From: an uncultured Prevotellaceae bacterium
Lineage (GTDB): Bacteria; Bacteroidota; Bacteroidia; Bacteroidales; Bacteroidaceae
Direction: 5' to 3'
DNA: 64,000 nt
Assembly: GCA_900316265.1 (NCBI GenBank)
Contig: ONCH01000007.1
Location: forward strand, 1 to 64,000
The position numbers were made by a program, and so were the translations under genes. The notes beneath the pieces were generated by a model. It was not told where the DNA came from and did not search any database. It saw only the letters and a list, made by a program, of their open reading frames with translations. Of this stretch, positions 5,689-50,995 are shown one piece after another (position 1 is the first letter of the stretch; every line of letters begins with the position of its first letter).

Positions 5689-7434
5689 ATGCAATTTAAA
5701 TGGAATTACGAACCACTGACACCAGAAAAGCAGCAAGCAGCTAAGGAGCTGGCCGAGAAGATCGGGATGAGTCCCGTGATGGCCGGACTCCTGATACAGC
5801 GTGGCATCAAAACGGAGAGTGCAGCAAAGCGCTTCTTCCGTCCTATGCTGAACGAGCTGATTGACCCGTTCCTGATGAACGACATGGACGTGGCAGTGGA
5901 CAGACTGAACGACGCCATGGGGCGCAAAGAGCGTATCATGGTTTATGGCGACTACGACGTCGACGGATGTACGGCGGTAGCGCTCGTCTACAAGTTCCTG
6001 CAGCAATTCTATTCCAACATCGACTACTATATCCCCAACCGCGAGGAAGAGGGCTATGGTGTCAGCAAGAAGGGAATAGACTATGCAGCAGAAACAGGGG
6101 TAAAACTCATTATCGTACTTGACTGTGGCATCAAGGCCGTCGAGGAGATAGCGTATGCCAAAGAGCAGGGCGTAGATTTCATCATCTGCGACCATCACGT
6201 GCCTGACGAGGTGATGCCTCCTGCTGTGGCTATTCTCAATCCCAAGCGTGAAGACTCCACCTATCCTTTTAAACATCTTTGCGGATGTGGTGTGGGCTTC
6301 AAGTTCATGCAGGCCTTTGCCAAGAACAACGGCATTCCGTTCTCACGCCTTATCCCCCTACTCGACTTCTGTGCCGTCAGCATTGCTGCAGACCTGGTGC
6401 CTGTGGAGGGCGAGAACCGCACACTGGCGTTCCACGGACTAAAACTACTAAACCAGTCACCATCGACGGGATTGAAGGCAATCATCGAGATTTGCGGACT
6501 TACCAACCGCGATCTCAACATGAGCGATATCGTCTTCAAGATAGGTCCGCGCATCAATGCCTCCGGACGCATGATGAATGGTCGCGAGGCTGTCGACTTG
6601 CTCGTAGAACGTGACATGAAGCGCGCTTTGGCGATGGCTATGCGCATCAACGAATACAACGAGCAGCGCAAGGACGTTGACAAGCAGATGACTGTCGAAG
6701 CCAACGAGATTGTAGAACGCTTGGAGAGTCAGCAGCACCAGCAGTCCATCGTGCTCTATGACGAGGGCTGGAAGAAAGGTGTGGTAGGCATTGTGGCCTC
6801 ACGACTCACCGAGCTCTATTTCCGTCCCACGGTGGTGCTCACCGTCATCGACGGTATGGCATCGGGCTCCGCACGTTCCGTAGCAGGCTTTGACGTTTAT
6901 GACGCCGTTAAGTCGTGTCGCGACCTGCTGGAGAATTTCGGTGGTCACACCTATGCCGTAGGTCTAACCATACGCCAGGAGAATATCCCTGAGTTCCGTC
7001 GTCGTTTCCAGGAATATGTCAGCCACCACATCCTGCCTGAGCAGACCCAACAGACGCTCGACATCGATATGGAGCTGGACTTCCAACAGATTAACAAGCG
7101 CCTGCTCAACGAGCTGAAGCGTCTGGCACCTCACGGACCCAACAACAGCAAACCGCTGTTCCTCACGCGCAACGTCTTCGACTTCGGCACCTCGAAAGTG
7201 GTGGGTCGCCATCAGGAGCATATTAAACTGGAACTCGTTGATTCCAAGTCAGCAGTAGTTATGAACGGCATCGCCTTCGGACAGTCCTCAGCAGCACGCT
7301 ACATCAAGTCAAAGCGTTCGTTCGACATCGTCTATACCATCGAGGAGAACACTTACAAGCGTGGCGAGATTCAGCTTCAGATAGAAGGTATCCGTCCGTC
7401 AGAAGAGGACAATAGACAGGCGACCGTTGAGTAA
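5689..7434 (+). CDS. recJ: Single-stranded-DNA-specific exonuclease RecJ
   Basis: 5'-3' single-strand exonuclease acting in recombination and repair. The DHH-superfamily phosphoesterase motifs are in order: DYDVDG (88-93), LDCG (144-147), CDHHVPDE (167-174), then the DHHA1 signature FGGHTYAVGL near 419, with the OB fold after it. GPRINASGRM near 285 is also typical. The length of 581 aa is normal. Its last 8 nt overlap the next gene, recQ, giving a two-gene recombination operon (RecQ unwinds, RecJ resects). Confidence 0.96.
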   Translation: MQFKWNYEPLTPEKQQAAKELAEKIGMSPVMAGLLIQRGIKTESAAKRFFRPMLNELIDPFLMNDMDVAVDRLNDAMGRKERIMVYGDYDVDGCTAVALVYKFLQQFYSNIDYYIPNREEEGYGVSKKGIDYAAETGVKLIIVLDCGIKAVEEIAYAKEQGVDFIICDHHVPDEVMPPAVAILNPKREDSTYPFKHLCGCGVGFKFMQAFAKNNGIPFSRLIPLLDFCAVSIAADLVPVEGENRTLAFHGLKLLNQSPSTGLKAIIEICGLTNRDLNMSDIVFKIGPRINASGRMMNGREAVDLLVERDMKRALAMAMRINEYNEQRKDVDKQMTVEANEIVERLESQQHQQSIVLYDEGWKKGVVGIVASRLTELYFRPTVVLTVIDGMASGSARSVAGFDVYDAVKSCRDLLENFGGHTYAVGLTIRQENIPEFRRRFQEYVSHHILPEQTQQTLDIDMELDFQQINKRLLNELKRLAPHGPNNSKPLFLTRNVFDFGTSKVVGRHQEHIKLELVDSKSAVVMNGIAFGQSSAARYIKSKRSFDIVYTIEENTYKRGEIQLQIEGIRPSEEDNRQATVE

Positions 7435-9370
7435 CTACAAAGAGATACTGAAGCACTATTGGGGCTATGAAGACTTTCGTGGCATCCAACAGCAGATTAT
7501 CGAGTCGATAGGACTGGGACACGACACGCTGGGTCTCATGCCTACGGGAGGTGGTAAGTCGCTGACTTTCCAAGTACCTGCTATGGCGCTGGAAGGCGTA
7601 TGCATCGTCATTACCCCACTCATCGCACTGATGAAAGACCAGGTGATGCACCTCCGCAAGCAGGGTATCCTGGCAGCTGCCGTCTATAGCGGTATGTCAC
7701 ACGACGACATCCTGCGCGTGCTGGAGAACTGCATTCTCGGCCGCACCAAATTTCTTTACGTGTCACCTGAGCGACTCTCCAGCGAACTCTTCGTTACCAA
7801 GCTGCGCCACATGCATGTGTCGTTCATTACGGTTGACGAGGCACACTGCATCTCGCAGTGGGGCTACGACTTCCGACCCAGCTACTTGGAGATTTCCAAC
7901 ATCCGCACTCTCCTACCCGACATTCCCGTGCTGGCACTTACCGCCACCGCAACACCTCAAGTTGTCGAGGACATCTGCGAGAAGCTTTCTGGCAAATCCG
8001 GGCAAACCGCCTCCCAAAGTGTGGAACACGGTTTTGCCGTGTTTAGAATGAGCTTTGAGCGCAAGAACCTTACCTATCTGGTAAAGGACTGTCCCGACAA
8101 GATACAGGAACTCATCCACACCTTCCAGCACACCCAAGGCTCCGCCATCGTTTATGTGCGCAGTCGCCGACGCACCAAGGAGATTGCCCAGGAACTCAGC
8201 AATGCTGGACTCAGCGCCACCTTCTATCATGCTGGACTGGACCACGAGGTGAAAGACCAGCGCCAGCGCGACTGGCAACAAGACCGCGTGCGCATCATCG
8301 TCTGCACCAACGCCTTCGGCATGGGCATCGACAAACCCGACGTCCGACTGGTCATGCACTACGACTGTCCCGACTCCATCGAGGCCTACTTCCAGGAGGC
8401 TGGTCGTGCAGGGCGCGACGGCAAGCCCGCACAGGCCATCCTGCTCTACAACAACAGCGACAATGCCAAGCTCGCCAAGCGCATCGACGACACCTTTCCA
8501 CCGAAGGACGAAATCCGTCAGGTCTATGAGCACCTCGCCTATTTCTTCCAGATAGCCACAGGCGACGGTTTCGGCATTACCCGCGAGTTCAGCATCGACA
8601 TTTTCTGCCAGCGTTTCCACCACTTCCCCGTCCGTGTGCATTCCGCCCTGCAGATTCTGCAGCGTGCAGGCTACATAGAATACGACGCAACACCCGACCA
8701 GCAGGCGCGTGTGCGCTTCCTCTTAGAGCGCCACGAGCTCTATCAGTTCAACGACCTCTCAGCCGACGAAGACCGCCTCATCGTTACCCTCCTGCGCAAC
8801 TACGGTGGACTGTTTGCCGACTTCGGCTACATCGACGAGACACTCATCAGTCAGCAGTGCGGACTGCGTCCTGCCGACCTCCACGAGGTGTTGAAGTCGT
8901 TGGCCCATAAGCGCATCATCCAGTATATTCCCCGTCAGCAGGTACCCACTATCCGCTATATGCAGCGTCGCGAAGATCCGGAGCACGTCATACTGTCACC
9001 CGACGTCTATGAGAAGCGCCAGGAGCAGTACCGCCAGCGCATCCACGCCATGCTCAACTACATGCAGGACACAGCCCATTGTCGCTCACGCCTGCTACTG
9101 GAATACTTTGGCGAAAAGAACACCCACGACTGCGGACACTGCGACGTCTGTCTCGAACGCCAGCACCAGACCATTGCCCATCAACAGTCGCCCACAGCCG
9201 CAGATGCCATTCTCCACTTGCTCAGCGACGACCACCGCCACCACCTGTCAGAGCTTCATCGTCTGCCCCTTCCAACCGAAGCCCTTAATGAAGCCCTCCG
9301 CCGTCTGGTTGCCGAGGAAAAGATTCTCCTGAACGACGGATTCATGGAGAAACAGGTATCAGGTACGTGA
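7427..9370 (+). CDS. recQ: ATP-dependent DNA helicase RecQ
   Basis: 3'-5' DNA helicase of the RecF-type pathway. The Walker A motif TGGGKS is at residues 40-45, the DEAH box in TVDEAHCISQWGYDFR near 135, and motif VI in QEAGRAGRDG near 325. The zinc-binding cysteine cluster lies in CRSRLLLEYFGEKNTHDCGHCDVC near 555-578, here placed after the winged-helix part. No clear HRDC domain is seen at the C-terminus (647 aa). The start is a TTG at 7427 inside the recJ stop region (8-nt overlap); no ATG gives an alignment-consistent N-terminus. Confidence 0.94.
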   Translation: MSNYKEILKHYWGYEDFRGIQQQIIESIGLGHDTLGLMPTGGGKSLTFQVPAMALEGVCIVITPLIALMKDQVMHLRKQGILAAAVYSGMSHDDILRVLENCILGRTKFLYVSPERLSSELFVTKLRHMHVSFITVDEAHCISQWGYDFRPSYLEISNIRTLLPDIPVLALTATATPQVVEDICEKLSGKSGQTASQSVEHGFAVFRMSFERKNLTYLVKDCPDKIQELIHTFQHTQGSAIVYVRSRRRTKEIAQELSNAGLSATFYHAGLDHEVKDQRQRDWQQDRVRIIVCTNAFGMGIDKPDVRLVMHYDCPDSIEAYFQEAGRAGRDGKPAQAILLYNNSDNAKLAKRIDDTFPPKDEIRQVYEHLAYFFQIATGDGFGITREFSIDIFCQRFHHFPVRVHSALQILQRAGYIEYDATPDQQARVRFLLERHELYQFNDLSADEDRLIVTLLRNYGGLFADFGYIDETLISQQCGLRPADLHEVLKSLAHKRIIQYIPRQQVPTIRYMQRREDPEHVILSPDVYEKRQEQYRQRIHAMLNYMQDTAHCRSRLLLEYFGEKNTHDCGHCDVCLERQHQTIAHQQSPTAADAILHLLSDDHRHHLSELHRLPLPTEALNEALRRLVAEEKILLNDGFMEKQVSGT

Positions 9371-43858: not shown

Positions 43859-44536
43859 CCGTTTGGCCATCTCGTTAAGTGACACAAAGCGGTAGCGTTG
43901 CGATGTCAGAGGGATGGGCGTGTAGGTGGAATGACGAACCCCTGCCTTGCGGCGTAGCGTCTCTTCAACAGCCGCCTGAATACCTGTATCAAGAAACGAC
44001 TGCTCGGTAGGTTCCAACAGAAGTAGCTGTCCTTTCGAACACGCCTCGAAATACACTCCGCCCGGTTTGTAATAACGTTCATGCGGTGAACCCTCCTTTG
44101 GAAAACCGTCGTTGAGCAGCACCACTAGCGGATAGCCCTGCTCGCGCAAAGTGCGGGCAATGAACTGCTCACCCTTGCTGATAGCCGCCGTATAGGTAAT
44201 TGTTCCATTGTGGGCAGCAGCCAATACCGACTGCACCCGTTCCTTCACCTCATCGGTAGTTGCGCTTCGCGACATCTCAACCATCTGTTTGTCGGGCCAA
44301 TCCAAGAGGAAATGGTTGCCCATTGACGTAAACGACAGCCCCGCTGCCTCCGTCCGTCTGTGTAACCTGAAAAGCTCAGGGTTATGGCTCTTAATCCAAA
44401 GACGCCGCGGATTGTCCTTCGCATAGTCAATCATCCGCCGCAACTGCCCAGGTGCATGGAGTATTCGCTCGTGATAATAAGCCGCGTCCTGTTGCCAGAT
44501 ACTACCCCTACCCGCAAAAATGCGAGCAAATTGCAC
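43844..44536 (-). pseudogene. Y1 (REP-type) transposase, 3' part after a frame break
   Basis: Contains the C-terminal part of an HUH/Y1 transposase: FARIFAGRGSIWQQDAAYYHERILHAPGQLRRMIDYAKDNPRRL carries the catalytic tyrosine region, followed by about 150 extra residues (GNHFLLDWPDKQMVEMSR; ISKGEQFIARTLREQGYP) that look like a Rossmann-type or DprA-like accessory domain (uncertain). Homology in this frame extends upstream of 44536 to about 44557 (EKAAEVPVQFARIF), where it meets the upstream ORF in another frame. The ORF has no ATG at its start (first codon used is GTG). It reads as one gene split by a frameshift. Confidence 0.85.
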
Positions 44537-45084
44537 GGGAACCTCTGCTGCCTTTTCATGTCCATCACTTCATCGTTTCTTTCTTCGTTTCTGTGCACTT
44601 CAGCGGCGTTTTCTTCTCCGTTTCTGTGCACTCCCTCGCCGTTCCTTTCTTCATTTCTGTGCACTTCAGCGGCGTTTTCGCCGCTGCTATACATTTCTTT
44701 ATATACCTTCGTGCACCCGCTCTTGAACCCGCGAACCACCGCCCCAATGCTCTGCGGCAGCGGCTCCAGCACCTGAATCACCAGATGCACATGGTCGGGC
44801 ATCACCTTTTGCGCTAGCACCTTCAGGGCGAATCCCTTCCCCGCATAAAACTGCGCCAGCCCGCACAACATCTGACACACGCGACGTCCATAAGGATTAA
44901 GCCTCACGAAAGCCGTTTCCGCACTCTCACCGTCCAAAGTCCCAAACAATGGATACCGTTCCTCCACAGGCAGTGTAAAATGATAGATGGCTCGCCCCCT
45001 GTAGTCCCATCCGTTTTCACGGTGGTGCCTCATGGGGTCTACTGGCCTCCGCTTCCCCTGTCCATTATCCATTGTCGGAGTCAT
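44431..45084 (-). pseudogene. Y1 (REP-type) transposase, 5' part with the HUH motif
   Basis: Transposase of the TnpA-REP kind: WDYRGRAIYHFTLPVEERYPLFGTLDG at the start, the metal-binding HUH motif in MPDHVHLVIQVLEPLPQSIGAVVRGFKSGCTKVYKE (near 105-140), then three in-frame 11-residue repeats (NAAEVHRNEER type) where homologs have none. After residue ~175 the frame runs into unrelated sequence. The catalytic tyrosine half is in the next frame (43844-44536). Its ATG overlaps the Nudix stop as ATGA, so it is positioned as the fourth gene of the Nudix-Vsr operon. Confidence 0.85.
44581..44679. repeat. 33-bp tandem repeat, 3 units, inside the transposase gene
   Basis: Three 33-bp units (44581-44613, 44614-44646, 44647-44679). 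Units 1 and 3 are nearly identical (core CTGTGCACTTCAGCGGCG); unit 2 is diverged. The unit encodes an 11-residue Asn/Glu/His/Arg-rich repeat, and the frame break lies just downstream. Confidence 0.9.
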
Positions 45085-45467
45085 ATCTTACTTCTAACCT
45101 CTTCTAACACTTCAAAATCCGCTGGCAACCACTTCACGCTGTCCAGTTCGTCTTTTTCCAGCCACTTCGCCGCCTCGTGCTCATTCAGATGTAGCGCCTC
45201 TGTCACTAGCGAACAGAGATAGCAATGCATAGTGAGATGGAATTTGGGATAGTCGTAATTGATGGTACAAAGGTACTCATCCACGCTAATCTCTGCTGAC
45301 AGCTCCTCGTGAATCTCCCTCACAAGTGCGCACTCTGGTGTCTCCCCAGCCTCCATCTTTCCGCCAGGAAACTCCCACCAGTCCTTCCACTCGCCATATC
45401 CACGCTGGGTGGCGAATATCTTATCTCCCTTACGGATTATCGCTGCTACAACTTCTATTTGTTTCAT
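45081..45467 (-). CDS. Nudix hydrolase (MutT / CTP-pyrophosphohydrolase type)
   Basis: Hydrolyses (oxidised or non-canonical) nucleoside triphosphates. The Nudix box is complete: GGKMEAGETPECALVREIHEELSAEI (about 35-60; G-x5-E-x7-REUXEEXGU pattern). The start EVVAAIIRKGDKIFATQRGYGEWKDWWEFPGG is typical of MutT/NudG sanitation enzymes. At 128 aa it has normal length. It overlaps vsr by 4 nt upstream and the transposase ORF by 4 nt downstream. Its last codons are built of heptad repeats (45085-45108). Confidence 0.92.
   Translation of the reverse strand: MKQIEVVAAIIRKGDKIFATQRGYGEWKDWWEFPGGKMEAGETPECALVREIHEELSAEISVDEYLCTINYDYPKFHLTMHCYLCSLVTEALHLNEHEAAKWLEKDELDSVKWLPADFEVLEEVRSKI
45085..45108. 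repeat. Heptad repeats at the Nudix/transposase junction
   Basis: ATCTTAC, TTCTAAC, (CTC), TTCTAAC on the plus strand, that is GTTAGAA, GTTAGAA, GTAAGAT on the coding strand. They encode the Nudix C-terminus (EVLEEVRSKI) and supply the stop/start overlap. Confidence 0.7.
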
Positions 45468-46012
45468 ATTTTTTCTTCCTCCGCGGCTTTTAGGTAATTC
45501 TCACTCTCTTCCTCCAATTGTGGATATGAAACCATCTTCGCCCCATGATCCTGCAACCAGATATGGTTCAGGGTAAACGCTATCGATTCTAGCGTCTCTT
45601 CCCGCTTCGACGGCTTCAGCTCGCACTCCCATACCGTGATGCAATGCCAGCCCATTGCCGCCAGTTTCTTCTGCTCCTCCTTGTCACGTTCCTTGTTCCT
45701 GCGAATCTTCGCCACCCAGAACTCCCTGTTCGTCTTCGGAATCTTGCAACAAAGACTATTCACTATTCGTTTTTCACTATTCACTTGTGGCATCGCCACG
45801 TTGTGTCCATGCCAGAAGCACCCATTCACGAAGATGCACGTCCTGTATTTCCTCAGCACCAAGTCTGGATGCCCAGGCAACCGCTTATGGTTCAGTCTGT
45901 ATCGGAATCCCCTACTCCACAACCCTTTACGCACAATCATCTCTGGCTTCGTGTCCTTGCCACGAATAGCCGCCATGTTGGCGTGTCGTTGTTGTGCTGA
46001 GAGTTTATCCAT
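45464..46012 (-). CDS. vsr: Very short patch repair endonuclease Vsr
   Basis: Nicks T:G mismatches left by deamination of 5-methylcytosine, limiting C-to-T mutation at methylated sites. The family signature is complete: QQRHANMAAIRGKDTKPEMIVRKGLWSRGFRYRLNHKRLPGHPDLVLRKYRTCIFVNGCFWHGH (about 7-71) with the catalytic Asp in PDLV and FVxGCFWHxH. At 182 aa it is slightly longer than the E. coli enzyme. It starts 2 nt after the stop of the gene upstream and overlaps the Nudix ATG by 4 nt. Vsr near cytosine methyltransferases is a usual pairing. Confidence 0.95.
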   Translation of the reverse strand: MDKLSAQQRHANMAAIRGKDTKPEMIVRKGLWSRGFRYRLNHKRLPGHPDLVLRKYRTCIFVNGCFWHGHNVAMPQVNSEKRIVNSLCCKIPKTNREFWVAKIRRNKERDKEEQKKLAAMGWHCITVWECELKPSKREETLESIAFTLNHIWLQDHGAKMVSYPQLEEESENYLKAAEEEKI

Positions 46013-46507: not shown

Positions 46508-47629
46508 TTATGACTCTGCCACCATCATAGAGAGTTCAGACTCATTTACGTTCTCTTCATTTTGCTTTTTTGTTGACAGTTTTCTTATTTGTCTAAACTT
46601 CTCAAATACATTTTCTCGGTGGTGTTTTAGGAATATATTCAGAGGTCTGTAAAAAGGTTCTTTGGGTACAAAAATCTTTTTACCATTGTATTCATCATAG
46701 AACCAAGTTCCTTTTAACTTTTCTGATACAATTACTCTGTAATCATCACTGATGCAAAAGAAACCCTTGTCAAAAGCAAAGTGCATATCTCTACATAATG
46801 CGATACCATTACAAGGTAGAAATGTTCCTTGATGTGCTTGTGGCTTAATATGTGCAGCCTCCAGATTAAACAAATCTATATTACCCTCTTTATATCTGAT
46901 TACCTTACCAGTAACTGCGCATCGGTATTGGTAAGCATTCATAACAAGGTCATGGAACAATGAACTGTTAAAGATTGAGCATCCCATTGATTCCTCGAAA
47001 GAATTATTTTCATCATCCTGGTTTTCTTGTGCACTATAGGTACTCAATAATGAGTCTGATTCTGTTTTTATTACCTTCATGGCTTCATCAGTAACAACAA
47101 CATCAGAAACGGAATCAAGTATGGGTGTCTCAATAAAATCAAAAACAGTATCAATCACAGCATTTGCATGGAATCGCTTGTCATAATCATCTAAAATACG
47201 TTGTAGCACATGGCTTCTCTTATGTTCAGGAGTAATTCTGGTTAATGTATAATAGGTGTCACCATCAACGTCAAATCTTTCAAATACAGCATAATCACCT
47301 TTAAAGAAATATTCTTTATCAGGATCTATTTCATTATTCATATACAATCTGACCTCATTTCTCGGATTCTTTCCTGTGTATTCTATGTCCGCATATTTTT
47401 GGTTATGGTAATCCATCGTGCAAAGCACTCTTTCTCTTTCCTTACCATTAATCATTGGGATAATCGATACGATAACCTTGTCATTCATCACTACAGAAGA
47501 AATGTGTGGGAAAAAATCGAGACACGTTTTAGCAACAAGGAAATATCTTCCCCTTGCAGGTTTTTCGCCTCTTCGGTTAATAGACCCCATTTCTTGATGT
47601 CCAATTTTATGAATATAGAATCTACCCAT
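46508..47629 (-). CDS. HNH-type restriction endonuclease (probable R subunit of the R-M operon)
   Basis: A 373-aa protein with an N-terminal DNA-binding-like region of unknown type and a C-terminal HNH nuclease: YRCAVTGKVI (zinc-type Cys), LEAAHIKPQAHQGTFLPCNGIALCRDMHFAFDKGFFCISDDYRVIVS (about 265-305), with the H of AAHI, N of CNG and H of DMHFAF in HNH order. It starts inside the stop of the second methyltransferase (8-nt overlap). The close link makes it the likely restriction enzyme of the two methyltransferases; the recognition site is unknown. AT-richness compared with the flanking genes suggests acquisition. Confidence 0.88.
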   Translation of the reverse strand: MGRFYIHKIGHQEMGSINRRGEKPARGRYFLVAKTCLDFFPHISSVVMNDKVIVSIIPMINGKERERVLCTMDYHNQKYADIEYTGKNPRNEVRLYMNNEIDPDKEYFFKGDYAVFERFDVDGDTYYTLTRITPEHKRSHVLQRILDDYDKRFHANAVIDTVFDFIETPILDSVSDVVVTDEAMKVIKTESDSLLSTYSAQENQDDENNSFEESMGCSIFNSSLFHDLVMNAYQYRCAVTGKVIRYKEGNIDLFNLEAAHIKPQAHQGTFLPCNGIALCRDMHFAFDKGFFCISDDYRVIVSEKLKGTWFYDEYNGKKIFVPKEPFYRPLNIFLKHHRENVFEKFRQIRKLSTKKQNEENVNESELSMMVAES

Positions 47630-48869
47630 TGTAATATTTATTTAATATATTATGAAGTCCCTGTGCTATAGTTTTCGCAAAATCAGATGGCACTGCATTG
47701 CCAATCATCTTGTATTGTGCCATCATTGGACCAAGAAACTCAAAATCATCTGCAAATGTTTGCAATCTTGCAGCCTCTCTGACAGTAATTGACCTTGCTT
47801 GTTTAGGGTCGGGATGTATATGCCTCATTCCATCTTTATATAGATGTGCAGGAATTGTGTTGCTTGGTTCATTCCATCTTAGCACATAATATTTATGAAT
47901 ATTGCTCTTCTTGCCAGTCATCTTCGTATAAAGAGCTTTCAATGACTCTGTAGAGATGTATTCATTTTTACCCGATTCGATATCTTCCCCTAACATAGTG
48001 AATATCTTTTGGTCTCTTTCACTATGAAATCGAGGCACATGATTCATAACACCACCTCCATCTATTGGGGAATGGGAGTATTTGTGTCCGTTTTCCTTTA
48101 TTACTTCTTTACTTGGAAGAATGATAGGCAGATCTCCTATAGCATCCTTTACTGTTTTAAGAGTGGTACTATGTATAAATTGGGGCATCTGCTCCTTATA
48201 AAAATCATCAAGTACTTTTTGGCAAAAATCCGGGTTATTGGTATTGAGAGTTTTGTTTACTCCGAGAATAATGACACGCTTTCTATGCTGTGGAATTCCA
48301 AAATTAGCAACATCAAAAACGGCATTTTTGAAATCGTCAATCACACAATAACCAGCATCATCAAACGCTTTTCTGATTTTGTCAACAATAGGAGTTCCAT
48401 CAGGAGCAGCGCTCAACATACCGACTACATTTTCAAAAACGAAGAAAGCAGGCTTGAAATATTCCAGGATGCGGATATAACTTTCAAAAAGATAGTTCCT
48501 GTAATCATCACGCATTCCATGCGGGTCACGAATTCTTCCTGCCAGAGAATATGCTTGACAAGGAGGACCGCCAATTACAATATCTATCTTTTTGTCGCCA
48601 ATGAGTTTCTTTAGGCCAATATGCTTTCCATACTCTTCATCATCAAAACCATTAATCAGCTCGTCTGTACGCTGAATATCAAATCTTATAACCTCTTCTT
48701 TCGCGTTCTTGTGATGCCACCTTTTTTCTAGACGGTTGGCAAGGGTTTGACAAGGAAACGTTTCCCATTCAACACATGCAAGTGTATTGAAACCGCCTTC
48801 CTGCATAAAACCATCCATCAGACCACCACAGCCTGCAAACAAGTCGATAGTGTTGTATTTCATTGGCAT
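47622..48869 (-). CDS. DNA (cytosine-5-)-methyltransferase 2 of the R-M operon
   Basis: Methylates cytosine at C5. Conserved motifs in order: I DLFAGCGGLMDGF, IV GGPPCQAYSLAGR with the catalytic Cys, VI FVFENVVGML, VIII QHRKRVIILG, IX REAARLQTFADDF, X GNAVPSDFA. The variable target-recognition region lies between VIII and IX. The start at 48869 (TGATG, one-base overlap with the stop of the upstream methyltransferase) is preferred to a longer open frame to 48920; an ATG two codons on is also possible. Product about 415 aa. Confidence 0.93.
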   Translation of the reverse strand: MPMKYNTIDLFAGCGGLMDGFMQEGGFNTLACVEWETFPCQTLANRLEKRWHHKNAKEEVIRFDIQRTDELINGFDDEEYGKHIGLKKLIGDKKIDIVIGGPPCQAYSLAGRIRDPHGMRDDYRNYLFESYIRILEYFKPAFFVFENVVGMLSAAPDGTPIVDKIRKAFDDAGYCVIDDFKNAVFDVANFGIPQHRKRVIILGVNKTLNTNNPDFCQKVLDDFYKEQMPQFIHSTTLKTVKDAIGDLPIILPSKEVIKENGHKYSHSPIDGGGVMNHVPRFHSERDQKIFTMLGEDIESGKNEYISTESLKALYTKMTGKKSNIHKYYVLRWNEPSNTIPAHLYKDGMRHIHPDPKQARSITVREAARLQTFADDFEFLGPMMAQYKMIGNAVPSDFAKTIAQGLHNILNKYYNG

Positions 48870-49933
48870 CACTTCAGGTATTTTAGTAGTTCTACACCTA
48901 TAGCCTTTGCCATTAAGCAAGGGACTGCATTACCTACTTGTTTGTCTTGTTGTCCTTTATTTCCCAAGAAAACGAAATCATCAGGGAAAGACTGCAATCT
49001 GGCACTTTCTCTAACAGTTGGACATCTATTCCATTTGTAATGAAAATTATTCCTATGCCCTGTATCTATAGTCCTTGATGGTTTATAGCTACAGTACCTT
49101 GTCCAAGCCATGTGAAAAATTCTACTTTCACCAACACCAGGCGGAAGGTCTTTATAGTTTCCACCATCAGGTACTAATGCTATTGTATCTTTAACAAACT
49201 GTTTATGGTCTATGGATTTATGGTTGTGAAGAACATTGCAAGAACCTCTCATCAACTTTTGATAATCAGTTTGGGGTTCCATTTCATACTCAGAGACATC
49301 ACTTCCCAACGTATGCTCTAGACTAGGAAGATCTCCTATTGCCTGCTCACAAGTGATATACTCATCAGGTTTTAAATATGGTTCAGGGAATTGGAATTTC
49401 TCTTTTGTATTCAATAATCCAACAAATACGAGACGTTTCCTAATTTGGGGAACTCCATAGTCTGCAGAGCATAATATTTGATTGCTCACAGAATATCCCA
49501 TTGAGGTGAAACGTCTTACTATCTCATCACGTACTTCACCTTTGTACAATGTTGCCATGCCTGGTACATTCTCTATCAAGAATGCCTTGGGTTTATATCT
49601 CCTGACAGTTTCTATCATTGCAAGGTATAGTTTGTTACGCTCATCATCAAACTGTCTTGGTCCTGTTAAGCTAAAACCCTGACATGGTGGCCCGCCAATA
49701 ATAACATCTATTACGCTTCCATCTACAAGTTTATCAATCTGGTTGAATGTGTCAGGGGCTGACAAATCTCCACATAGTGTTTTACTACCATGATGATTGT
49801 ATGCATAGGTTTTTAGTGCAGGTTCATTGAAATCTACTCCTAATATGATGTTATAACCCGCCATCTCGAAGCCTTTTGACAAACCTCCACAGCCACAAAA
49901 TAAATCTAATACGTTATATTTCTCCTTTGACAT
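48869..49933 (-). CDS. DNA (cytosine-5-)-methyltransferase 1 of the R-M operon
   Basis: A second C5-cytosine methyltransferase, 354 aa from the ATG at 49933. Motifs: I LDLFCGCGGLSKGF, IV IGGPPCQGFSLTG, VI AFLIENVPGM, VIII PQIRKRLVFVG, IX RESARLQSFPDDF, X GNAVPCLMAKAIG. Two different C5 methyltransferases in tandem fit a system with an asymmetric site, one enzyme per strand (inference). An in-frame extension of 40 codons to 50053 lacks homology and runs through a hairpin; the ATG at 49933 is the start where motif spacing is normal. Confidence 0.93.
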   Translation of the reverse strand: MSKEKYNVLDLFCGCGGLSKGFEMAGYNIILGVDFNEPALKTYAYNHHGSKTLCGDLSAPDTFNQIDKLVDGSVIDVIIGGPPCQGFSLTGPRQFDDERNKLYLAMIETVRRYKPKAFLIENVPGMATLYKGEVRDEIVRRFTSMGYSVSNQILCSADYGVPQIRKRLVFVGLLNTKEKFQFPEPYLKPDEYITCEQAIGDLPSLEHTLGSDVSEYEMEPQTDYQKLMRGSCNVLHNHKSIDHKQFVKDTIALVPDGGNYKDLPPGVGESRIFHMAWTRYCSYKPSRTIDTGHRNNFHYKWNRCPTVRESARLQSFPDDFVFLGNKGQQDKQVGNAVPCLMAKAIGVELLKYLK

Positions 49934-49940
49934 GAAAAAG

Positions 49941-49966
49941 CCCTCTCTTCGTTTTCGAAAAGGGGG
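49941..49966 (-). terminator. Terminator-like hairpin directly before methyltransferase 1
   Basis: CCCTCTCTTCG (49941-49951) and CGAAAAGGGGG (49956-49966) form an 11-bp stem with one mismatch and a TTTT loop. On the minus strand it is followed by CTTTTTC and then the ATG. This is the shape of an attenuator or RNA-3'-end terminator just ahead of the gene. Confidence 0.6.
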
Positions 49967-50103
49967 CGTGGAAGAGACGATGTTTAACCAAGGCTTACGA
50001 CGGCCCACATCAGACAACAATCTTACTGTCCACGCCCTTATGAGCGCAAACATCCAAATGCTTGTCCGACTGATGTGTTCCCTTATGTCGTAATTCTGGT
50101 TAA
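49964..50103. promoter_or_regulatory. Folded leader upstream of methyltransferase 1 (nested inverted repeats)
   Basis: Matching arms in order: TTAACCA/TGGTTAA (49984-49990 with 50098-50103), TTACGAC/GTCGTAA (49995-50001 with 50087-50093), CACATCAG/CTGATGTG (50006-50013 with 50070-50077). In the loop TCCACGCCC (50029-50037) is the exact complement of GGGCGTGGA (49964-49972), which lies outside the arms, so a pseudoknot or alternative fold is possible. No riboswitch class is recognised. Confidence 0.55.
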
Positions 50104-50222
50104 TCAGTCAACCAAGGATGTCAATGACGCTTATTCTTTCCTAATTTTGTTTTAGTTCTACTTCTATTTTTTAGTCCGCAAGCACCAAAACGAACGGTTA
50201 TATTTCTATGGTTACTACAAAT

Positions 50223-50548
50223 AAAAAACGTGGTGCTTGCATCTGCCTGTTCGACTTTCGTGGCCTACCACAGCCATAACGGTAAACAGACAGAGAAACA
50301 ACCACGTTGAGGTATATAGATACACCGTAAAGTGTGCTAGTGAGGACATGGTTAGCCCTCGCAGCACACTACGGAGAGTATATACTACACCCCGTGGAGC
50401 TACCCCTGCAATGTTCTTGACCGTTATTCGATTGTGGTAGTTTCGAAAGTCCAAAAACAAAGCGTCAGTAACGCCTTCTAATATGTAGTGCTCCACCCTG
50501 CCAGCTCCGCACATCTCAATGTGCTTCTCAGCCACCATGGGCAGATAC
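50223..50548 (-). ncRNA. Putative structured RNA upstream of the R-M operon
   Basis: Minus strand. A TATCTTTG promoter (50554-50561) precedes a region whose ends pair: GGCAGAT/ATCTGCC (50540-50546 with 50241-50247). Inside are hairpins GCACAT/ATGTGC (50509-50524), AAGCGT/ACGCCT (50460-50476) and a long arm 50302-50397 including AGTGTGCT/AGCACACT (50331-50338 with 50363-50370) and TATATA blocks. The 3' end is AACGTGGT (50301-50308) pairing ACCACGTT (50227-50234) followed by six T. A 106-113-codon ORF spans it but has no recognisable homology here and starts from TTG or ATG within the fold. Either an RNA gene or, less likely, a small membrane protein gene. Confidence 0.5.
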
Positions 50549-50553
50549 GATTG

Positions 50554-50561
50554 CAAAGATA
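50554..50561 (-). promoter_or_regulatory. -7 promoter element (TATCTTTG) for the structured RNA
   Basis: Minus-strand TATCTTTG with AT-rich upstream DNA and a TTG about 18 nt further upstream. Transcription would start almost exactly at the closing stem of the folded region. Confidence 0.6.
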
Positions 50562-50643
50562 CAAAATTTATTTGTAAAACAATCGACTAAAGTGAAAAAA
50601 GTGGGAAAAAGATTTTGAAGAGTTTTTCGTCAAATCTATTAAC

Positions 50644-50904: not shown

Positions 50905-50995
50905 TACAGCTGATTAGCGTCAGGATACAGCTAAGTAGTAATCTGGTACAGCTAGGTAGCAATCTGGTACAGCTAAGTCGCATCAAGATACAGCT
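50905..50995. repeat. 21-bp tandem repeat (TACAGCT unit), 4 full units
   Basis: TACAGCT begins at 50905, 50926, 50947, 50968 and 50989, exactly 21 nt apart; the units share TACAGCTAAGTAGnAATCTGG with few changes. No ORF spans it. The period equals that of the array at 9395-9463. Confidence 0.85.

Follow-up and report, generated by a model that had tools for sequence, protein, structure and literature searches.

On the minus strand of the window, the 64,000-nucleotide stretch of DNA analysed here, a 326-nt segment lies between a promoter and a run of T, and the genes that follow it in the same direction encode two DNA methyltransferases. The question raised by this locus is what the segment is, RNA or coding sequence, and what it does for the operon behind it. 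An earlier note on this DNA had proposed a structured RNA with its own promoter, and its description of the parts proved accurate: the promoter, the pairing ends (ATCTGCC, 50546-50540, with GGCAGAT, 50247-50241), the terminator arms (AACGTGGT, 50308-50301, with ACCACGTT, 50234-50227) and the six T (50228-50223) are all located as claimed on the minus strand, and the direction of reading is toward the methyltransferase genes, as it had said. The parts of leader RNA unit 1 are as follows.

50554..50561 (50561-50554), minus strand: promoter -7 element of Bacteroidota type, TATCTTTG, from the sequence and the motif frequency in the copies
50223..50549, minus strand: leader RNA unit 1, from the probable start to the T-run, from the fold z-score and homologues in the genus
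50224..50489, minus strand: conserved core, matched by covariance model R1 at 271.3 bits, the window sequence itself being among those from which R1 was built
50451..50477, minus strand: short hairpin AAGGCG/CGCUUU, then the U-rich motif CUUUGUUUUUGG, near-invariant in the 36-copy alignment
50445..50451, minus strand: 5' strand of rod helix Hb, pairing with 50253-50259 (covariation; own-versus-swapped z 21.0)
50433..50440, minus strand: loop K1 (CTACCACA), pairing with K2 (Watson-Crick retention; z 13.2)
50265..50272, minus strand: loop K2 (TGTGGTAG), pairing with K1 (same basis as K1)
50420..50427, minus strand: 5' strand of rod helix Hd, pairing with 50276-50283 (covariation; z 20.5)
50388..50404, minus strand: strand A, putative antiterminator strand, capable of pairing with B (A:B z 5.8 in 49 dissimilar copies)
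50294..50308, minus strand: strand B, 5' arm of the terminator stem (B:C z 10.1)
50223..50241, minus strand: strand C, 3' arm of the terminator stem with T6 (T-run frequency in the copies)
50178..50186, minus strand: strand D (GGTGCTTGC), 3' loop, predicted to pair with C after read-through (C:D z 5.6)

The 326-nt segment folds at -132.1 kcal/mol, compared with a mean of -98.1 for 100 dinucleotide shuffles, none of which folded equally well (z -5.95). The stems of the layered pairing described earlier are present, but the end pairing and the terminator are not layers of one fold: the end pairing and the inner terminator stem both need the same 3' strand, and rod and terminator are in competition. 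In contrast to a textbook terminator, the terminator stem here closes a long loop that itself contains hairpins. Near the start of the leader, the AAGGCG/CGCUUU hairpin and its U-rich motif resemble a hairpin pause signal, as we infer; CTTTGTTTTTG is exact in 58 of 100 broader copies. The segment from promoter to T-run is present as the earlier note delimited it, but the element extends further, with a conserved 3' hairpin beyond the T-run, whose loop pairs back (50186-50178), and then a second structured unit (49936-50130), which sits between unit 1 and the methyltransferase gene. The second unit and the operon comprise the following.

49936..50130, minus strand: leader RNA unit 2, a compact relative with the loop pair TTACGAC/GTCGTAA (R1 22 bits; loop pair in the copies)
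49935..49967, minus strand: hairpin resembling a terminator, with T5, that closes unit 2 and lies one base before the ATG (from the sequence)
48869..49933, minus strand: first gene, C5-cytosine DNA methyltransferase, ATG 49933-49931 (PF00145, E 5e-69)
47622..48920, minus strand: second C5-cytosine DNA methyltransferase (PF00145, E 4.2e-55)
46508..47629, minus strand: HNH endonuclease (PF13391, E 4.5e-9)
45464..46012, minus strand: Vsr mismatch endonuclease (PF03852, E 2.9e-31)

The HNH endonuclease (46508..47629) is probably a restriction enzyme. The operon also encodes a nucleoside deoxyribosyltransferase-like protein (a weak match, under the Pfam cut-off) and a NUDIX protein. Just after it, at 44431-45084 on the minus strand, lies a protein with an IS200-like Y1 transposase domain (PF01797, 23.1 bits, cut-off 23) that has an internal repetitive stretch and is possibly of the REP-associated type. 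Upstream of the leader promoter by about 360-410 bases, at 50924-50975 (minus strand), there are TAGCTGTAYC-like direct repeats, three of them exact, with 21-nt spacing; looser similar repeats lie upstream of the second leader copy of the same genome (L002/L054).

Unit 2 is found weakly by R1 (22 bits). Its loop pair, however variable in sequence, is 7-8 bp long in 19 of 20 copies and occurs in five variants, and searches by blast with unit 2 and its L062 counterpart placed units 1 and 2 in tandem at 24 of 161 loci. In other copies, too, a terminator-like hairpin closes unit 2 a short distance ahead of the gene. At the corresponding position in L062 there is a stem of eight pairs, CCCCTGCG/CGCAGGGG, with CTTTTT; it lies about 26 bases upstream of what is likely the start of the methyltransferase. 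A terminator placed directly before a gene makes sense if read-through is regulated.

To characterize the conservation of these pairings, 36 of 41 copies (40 further copies plus the window) were included in alignments A1 and A2, with the five partial or decayed copies L040, L044, L045, L046 and L050 left out; a broader alignment, A4, contained 100 matches, from 100 of 161 sources, selected mostly by score. In 35 of the 36 copies, K1 and K2 are Watson-Crick complementary over 7-9 bp, the exception being L038, while the block itself varies: CTACCAC(A) in 18 copies, CTTCCACA in eight and others in nine, among them the K1/K2 blocks CGTCGGAA/TTCCGACG, CTTAGGAA/TTCCTAAG and TGTAGGAAA/TTTCCTACA. It is not certain that K1:K2 is a kissing-loop pseudoknot, as a nested reading within the rod is also possible. 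Mutual information over A4 was high for the apical hairpin, Hb, K1:K2, Hd and the terminator stem, and also for some columns that cannot pair, e.g., 91/402 and 63/299. RNAalifold, applied to the whole alignment, returned nested hairpins and the terminator stem only.

We compared the two strands of each copy with strands exchanged between copies in 2000 swaps, a test that preserves the make-up of the columns and not ancestry, using 49 of the 100 A4 copies that are less than 75% identical. All seven pairings scored above every one of the 2000 swaps, with z values of 13.2 for K1:K2, 21.0 for Hb, 20.5 for Hd, 8.2 for the inner terminator stem, 5.8 for A:B, 10.1 for B:C and 5.6 for C:D (range 5.6-21.0). 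Six mismatched control pairings gave z from -1.1 to 1.8, including A:C, B:D and A:D (-0.4, 0.5 and -1.1); the highest, K1 with the inner terminator strand (1.8), was matched by 75 of the 2000 swaps. On all 100 copies, z was 7.6 for A:B, 17.7 for B:C and 11.0 for C:D, in contrast to -2.7, 1.3 and -1.1 for A:C, B:D and A:D. The covarying stems by which the proposed RNA was to be checked are thus present, seven pairings being kept by compensatory change in 49 dissimilar copies. Across 22 pairs, 2163 cells comprised 1746 Watson-Crick, 224 G-U, 33 A-C and 160 other combinations, with 402 G-U and 249 A-C expected if columns were independent; these figures suggest that the RNA has the sequence of the strand as read here. 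Together with the promoter motif, found in 95 of 100 copies, the compensatory changes bear out the structured RNA with its own promoter.

A coding ORF of 106-113 codons had been named as the competing explanation, and a frame of 113 codons is indeed open over the segment in the window. We rejected it, since only nine of 100 cores have a fully open frame in any frame and core lengths are spread over the three remainders modulo 3 (39/32/29). No ATG column is common to at least 60% of the 36 copies, and the shared TTG and GTG triplets sit inside conserved core motifs; a conserved leader peptide, as a ribosome-mediated attenuator would have, was rejected because no ATG column is shared. These comparisons indicate that the conserved structure is RNA, not protein, and we give the coding explanation almost no credence.

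The three pairings A:B, B:C and C:D overlap: strand B takes part both in A:B, which lies inside the rod, and in B:C, while strand C takes part both in B:C and in C:D. Because these three are kept by compensatory change and A:C, B:D and A:D are not, the leader appears to be selected to hold two exclusive states, an antiterminator and a terminator. The folding energies are consistent with two states: in 93 of the A4 copies (median fold -126.5), the median gap between the free fold and a fold with two terminator pairs forced was 3.1 kcal/mol (interquartile range 0.0-5.6), and in 25 of the 93 the free fold already holds both pairs at no cost. The window folds freely at -133.3 and at -129.6 with six terminator pairs forced, the terminator hairpin alone giving -37.1; its predicted free fold prefers the rod, and termination there may be minor. 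Judged by the coordinates, transcription would complete the rod about 23 nt earlier than strand C, which gives the rod an advantage in the order of synthesis. As an intrinsic terminator within the leader there is the B:C stem (z 10.1) with its T-run (97/100), as a mutually exclusive antiterminator there is A:B (z 5.8 versus the controls), and promoter, leader and first gene follow one another on the same strand (142/157). As predicted from these pairings and this order, the leader has the structure of a transcription attenuator.

We consider it probable, with rather better than even confidence, that the segment is a bistable cis-acting leader RNA that controls transcriptional read-through in an attenuator or antitermination role, and that it probably decides whether the genes of the operon are switched on. 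In the proposed mechanism, the polymerase would leave the promoter and the rod would fold first, holding strand B. If the rod stays intact, the polymerase would pass the T-run and the operon would be transcribed; if it opens, B:C would form and transcription would end after about 325 nt. In the window, unit 2, built on the same plan, would repeat the decision, its terminator-like hairpin lying one base before the methyltransferase ATG. The balance could be set by a NusG-type factor, the ribosome, a small molecule or temperature. Strand D lies beyond the T-run and therefore cannot decide termination there; C:D, formed only after read-through, might fix the leader in its open state, or it might affect translation of the gene whose start lies a little further on.

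We examined how far this leader extends among related bacteria. A blastn search with 50170-50600 revealed a second copy in the window's own genome (84% identical). Of 149 related genomes, 52, the window's among them, gave matches at E <= 1e-3, the weakest being short pieces around the promoter; the same query had no match among plasmids and phages. Covariance model R1 spans 267 positions and was built from the 36-copy alignment; 143 of 200 genomes of the genus had a match to it at E <= 1e-3, and a single genome contained as many as nine when antisense matches of true copies are included. Since the rod is self-complementary, the antisense strands of true copies reach scores of up to 37 bits, and 45 bits was therefore taken as the floor for R1. 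In the order, 27 of 247 genomes were matched (25 genera), 20 of the 27 at 45 bits or more, the window's own counted. Among 247 genomes of the phylum, R1 had only two matches outside the window's genome, both of about 25 bits and at the level of antisense noise, and an occurrence of the family outside Bacteroidales was rejected. A gapped DNA pattern of 24 fixed bases, which occurs once in the window and in none of 100 shuffles, matched at least 119 stretches in named genomes; the 80 matches listed belong to Bacteroidales, Prevotella, Prevotellaceae, Bacteroidaceae and Candidatus Avirikenella, many from ruminants, and viral contigs gave no match to the pattern. Prevotella communis E15-14, a cultured bacterium with a complete genome, is among the carriers of the pattern. 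The predicted RNA family is widespread in Bacteroidales, mostly in Prevotella. Two loci differ in their arrangement: L067 carries tandem leader copies at 6461-6708 and 8099-8369, about 1.4 kb apart, the first scoring only 45.8 bits, and L046 has, at about 6180-6260, a remnant with the promoter and roughly the first 80 bases of the element, followed by unrelated sequence.

The earlier statement that no known RNA class fits agrees with Rfam 15, which at its gathering cut-off has no family in the whole window and only two tRNAs at 18 loci with other copies. A permissive search of 49900-50600 gave nine weak matches, all under cut-off, the best being PyrG_leader at unit 2 (24.7 bits, cut-off 65). 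Among the titles listed in a literature search of published papers, none describes the leader RNA, and the family is apparently undescribed so far. A supplement to PMC8040213 contains 3161 candidate RNAs of human microbiomes and might include part of this family.

For the position of the leader relative to genes we used 157 copies of at least 45 bits, leaving out the L045 and L109 matches and the first of the two in L067, all likewise of at least 45 bits. In 142 of them, leader and next ORF are on the same strand; in 13 that ORF is on the opposite strand (some of these are predicted inside unit 2), and in two there is none. The strand of the preceding ORF is mixed (74 same, 59 opposite, 24 none). 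The distance from core to gene is most often 70-80 nt (37 of 142); a second, broader group of 32 of 142 lies between about 170 and 305 nt, and many of these have an added unit. In 95 of 100 copies, the 160 nt preceding the core contain TAnnTTTG, compared with 246 of 3000 random 160-mers, and a run of at least four T closes the core in 97 of 100, compared with 387 of 5000 random 20-mers. The best reading of this arrangement is that the RNA acts in cis as a 5' leader. The earlier suggestion of an RNA regulator would hold in this form, with a same-strand gene next in 142 of 157, and not as a free-standing regulator.

The genes behind the leader are diverse. According to Pfam, the 142 first genes, a set picked mostly by R1 score whose proportions lean toward the window's relatives, include C5-methyltransferases (22), D12 N6-methyltransferases (9), N6_N4 methyltransferases (8) and N6_Mtase proteins (4), i.e., up to 43 DNA methyltransferases in four families, with double counts possible, together with four BspA-type leucine-rich repeat proteins. 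NCBIfam models at E <= 1e-5, a threshold used in place of the curated cut-off, assigned 11 to antiterm_UpxY and three to antiterm_LoaP. A crude script found a lipobox-like or hydrophobic N-terminus in 50 of the 142. There is no evident common pathway among these genes. Small secreted-looking proteins with AQKEVTVKAGT or near variants by the N-terminus follow the leader at L147, L160, L162, L164 and L167. Where the first or second gene is NusG-like, or possibly so, the sequences form separate groups (L039, L166, L181, L195 and L208; L161, L191, L192 and L193; L186, L187 and L194).

The earlier note had also considered the RNA part of the defence unit, and had named its presence near other restriction-modification operons as a check. 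In 40 genomes of the genus there are 74 match rows for C5-methyltransferases, fragments included; at 30 loci, the best per genome with flanks of about 1.5 kb, a leader was present at four, the window's own included. Such proximity therefore exists without a constant association, and with unrelated genes behind many copies neither membership of the defence unit nor an element specific to restriction-modification could be upheld; the predicted leader is optional for C5-methyltransferase loci and not dedicated to restriction-modification. A general leader of UpxY genes was likewise rejected: within about 1.5 kb, it was present at one of 32 UpxY-model loci of the genus (40.6 bits), a list that includes NusG-like proteins under the model cut-off, and at none of the 28 above it. 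At G034:C47:157627-158428, three UpxY-model matches are clustered, and for one of them there is a match of equal score on another contig, at G034:C33:13-183.

Other explanations account for parts of these data. The phage put RNA is a processive antitermination RNA, and the leader could work similarly, recruiting a NusG paralogue or binding the polymerase so that terminators downstream are ignored, the internal terminators being the targets. The antiterm_UpxY and antiterm_LoaP proteins among the first genes (11 and 3 of 142), the hairpin with its U-rich motif near the leader start and the tandem units at 24 of 161 loci all favour this, as does the make-up of the LoaP target, a leader of 417 nt that contains an RNA hairpin as well as a pause and an intrinsic terminator (PMC12691694). 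However, the leader is present at one of 32 UpxY-model loci and at none of the 28 above cut-off, so it is not a general UpxY leader, and the competition of A:B with B:C accounts for the anatomy without a trans factor; we regard processive antitermination as rather unlikely. A ligand-sensing riboswitch, with the rod and loop-loop contact as binding domain and the terminator as output, would suit the complex conserved fold, the near-invariant motif and the switch-like output, but it is improbable given genes downstream with no evident pathway in common.

Slighter still is the case for a free-standing trans-acting small RNA with its 3' end at the T-run: its own promoter motif and terminator, which would yield a terminated leader of about 325 nt, are what such an RNA would have, whereas same-strand genes follow 142 of 157 copies and conserved pairing extends beyond the T-run, which makes it quite improbable. 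A mobile or DNA-level palindrome, e.g., a MITE or REP element, is very improbable: several copies per genome and a self-complementary rod (antisense up to 37 bits) would be expected of it, yet the promoter motif, the T-run, the strand-specific G-U bias and the leader placement speak for an RNA, and plasmids, phages and viral contigs are without a match. With many unrelated genes preceded by the element as well, the mobile RNA element that the earlier note had entertained finds no support.

Returning to the bistable cis-acting leader, a wider reading is possible, to which we give tentative confidence, a little short of even. It holds that the family is an undescribed, Bacteroidales-specific class of large bistable RNA switches, a portable on/off module of unrelated accessory operons (DNA modification and defence, NusG-type antiterminators, surface proteins), often multicopy, sometimes in tandem and answering one common cellular signal. 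If this is right, accessory genes of rumen and gut Prevotella, including DNA-modification operons, would be under one unnoticed RNA-level control, which would offer a way to understand how these bacteria silence or switch on their defence and surface genes, and structural work would gain a large and new RNA fold in which a loop-loop contact is conserved. The competing strands open the switch to direct test by compensatory mutation.

OLE, GOLLD, ROOL and HEARO are large structured bacterial RNAs, to which the leader RNA is similar in size and complexity; unlike them, it is a leader with a terminator, and it has no Rfam match at gathering level. The trp, T-box and pyrG leaders are attenuators with a mutually exclusive antiterminator and terminator, and the leader RNA is like them in its competing strands (A:B, B:C) and U-run. 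In comparison with these, it is larger, has a loop-loop contact and a C:D pairing that forms only after read-through, shares no leader-peptide ATG, and gave a PyrG_leader score of 24.7 bits at unit 2 (cut-off 65). Bacteroides UpxY proteins activate their own capsule operons (PMC7593976). Bacteroides belongs to the same order as the carriers of the leader RNA, and a UpxY-type gene comes first behind 11 of 142 copies; 31 of 32 UpxY-model loci, however, are without the leader RNA within about 1.5 kb. A large bistable rod, a loop-loop contact and a four-strand chain are not described in the accessible parts of PMC12691694 and PMC7593976; the LoaP element is there a small UNCG hairpin, whereas the leader RNA, known from sequence alone, has a rod of about 270 nt, a loop-loop contact and a competing antiterminator. 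The nearest studied system that we found is nonetheless the LoaP-controlled dfn leader of Bacillus velezensis, which is 417 nt long and combines a hairpin needed for antitermination with a pause and an intrinsic terminator (PMC12691694). The dfn and mln leaders described there and the leader RNA are alike in a leader of about 400 nt, a hairpin, a pause, an intrinsic terminator and an accessory operon behind, and in some copies of the leader RNA a NusG-type gene comes first.
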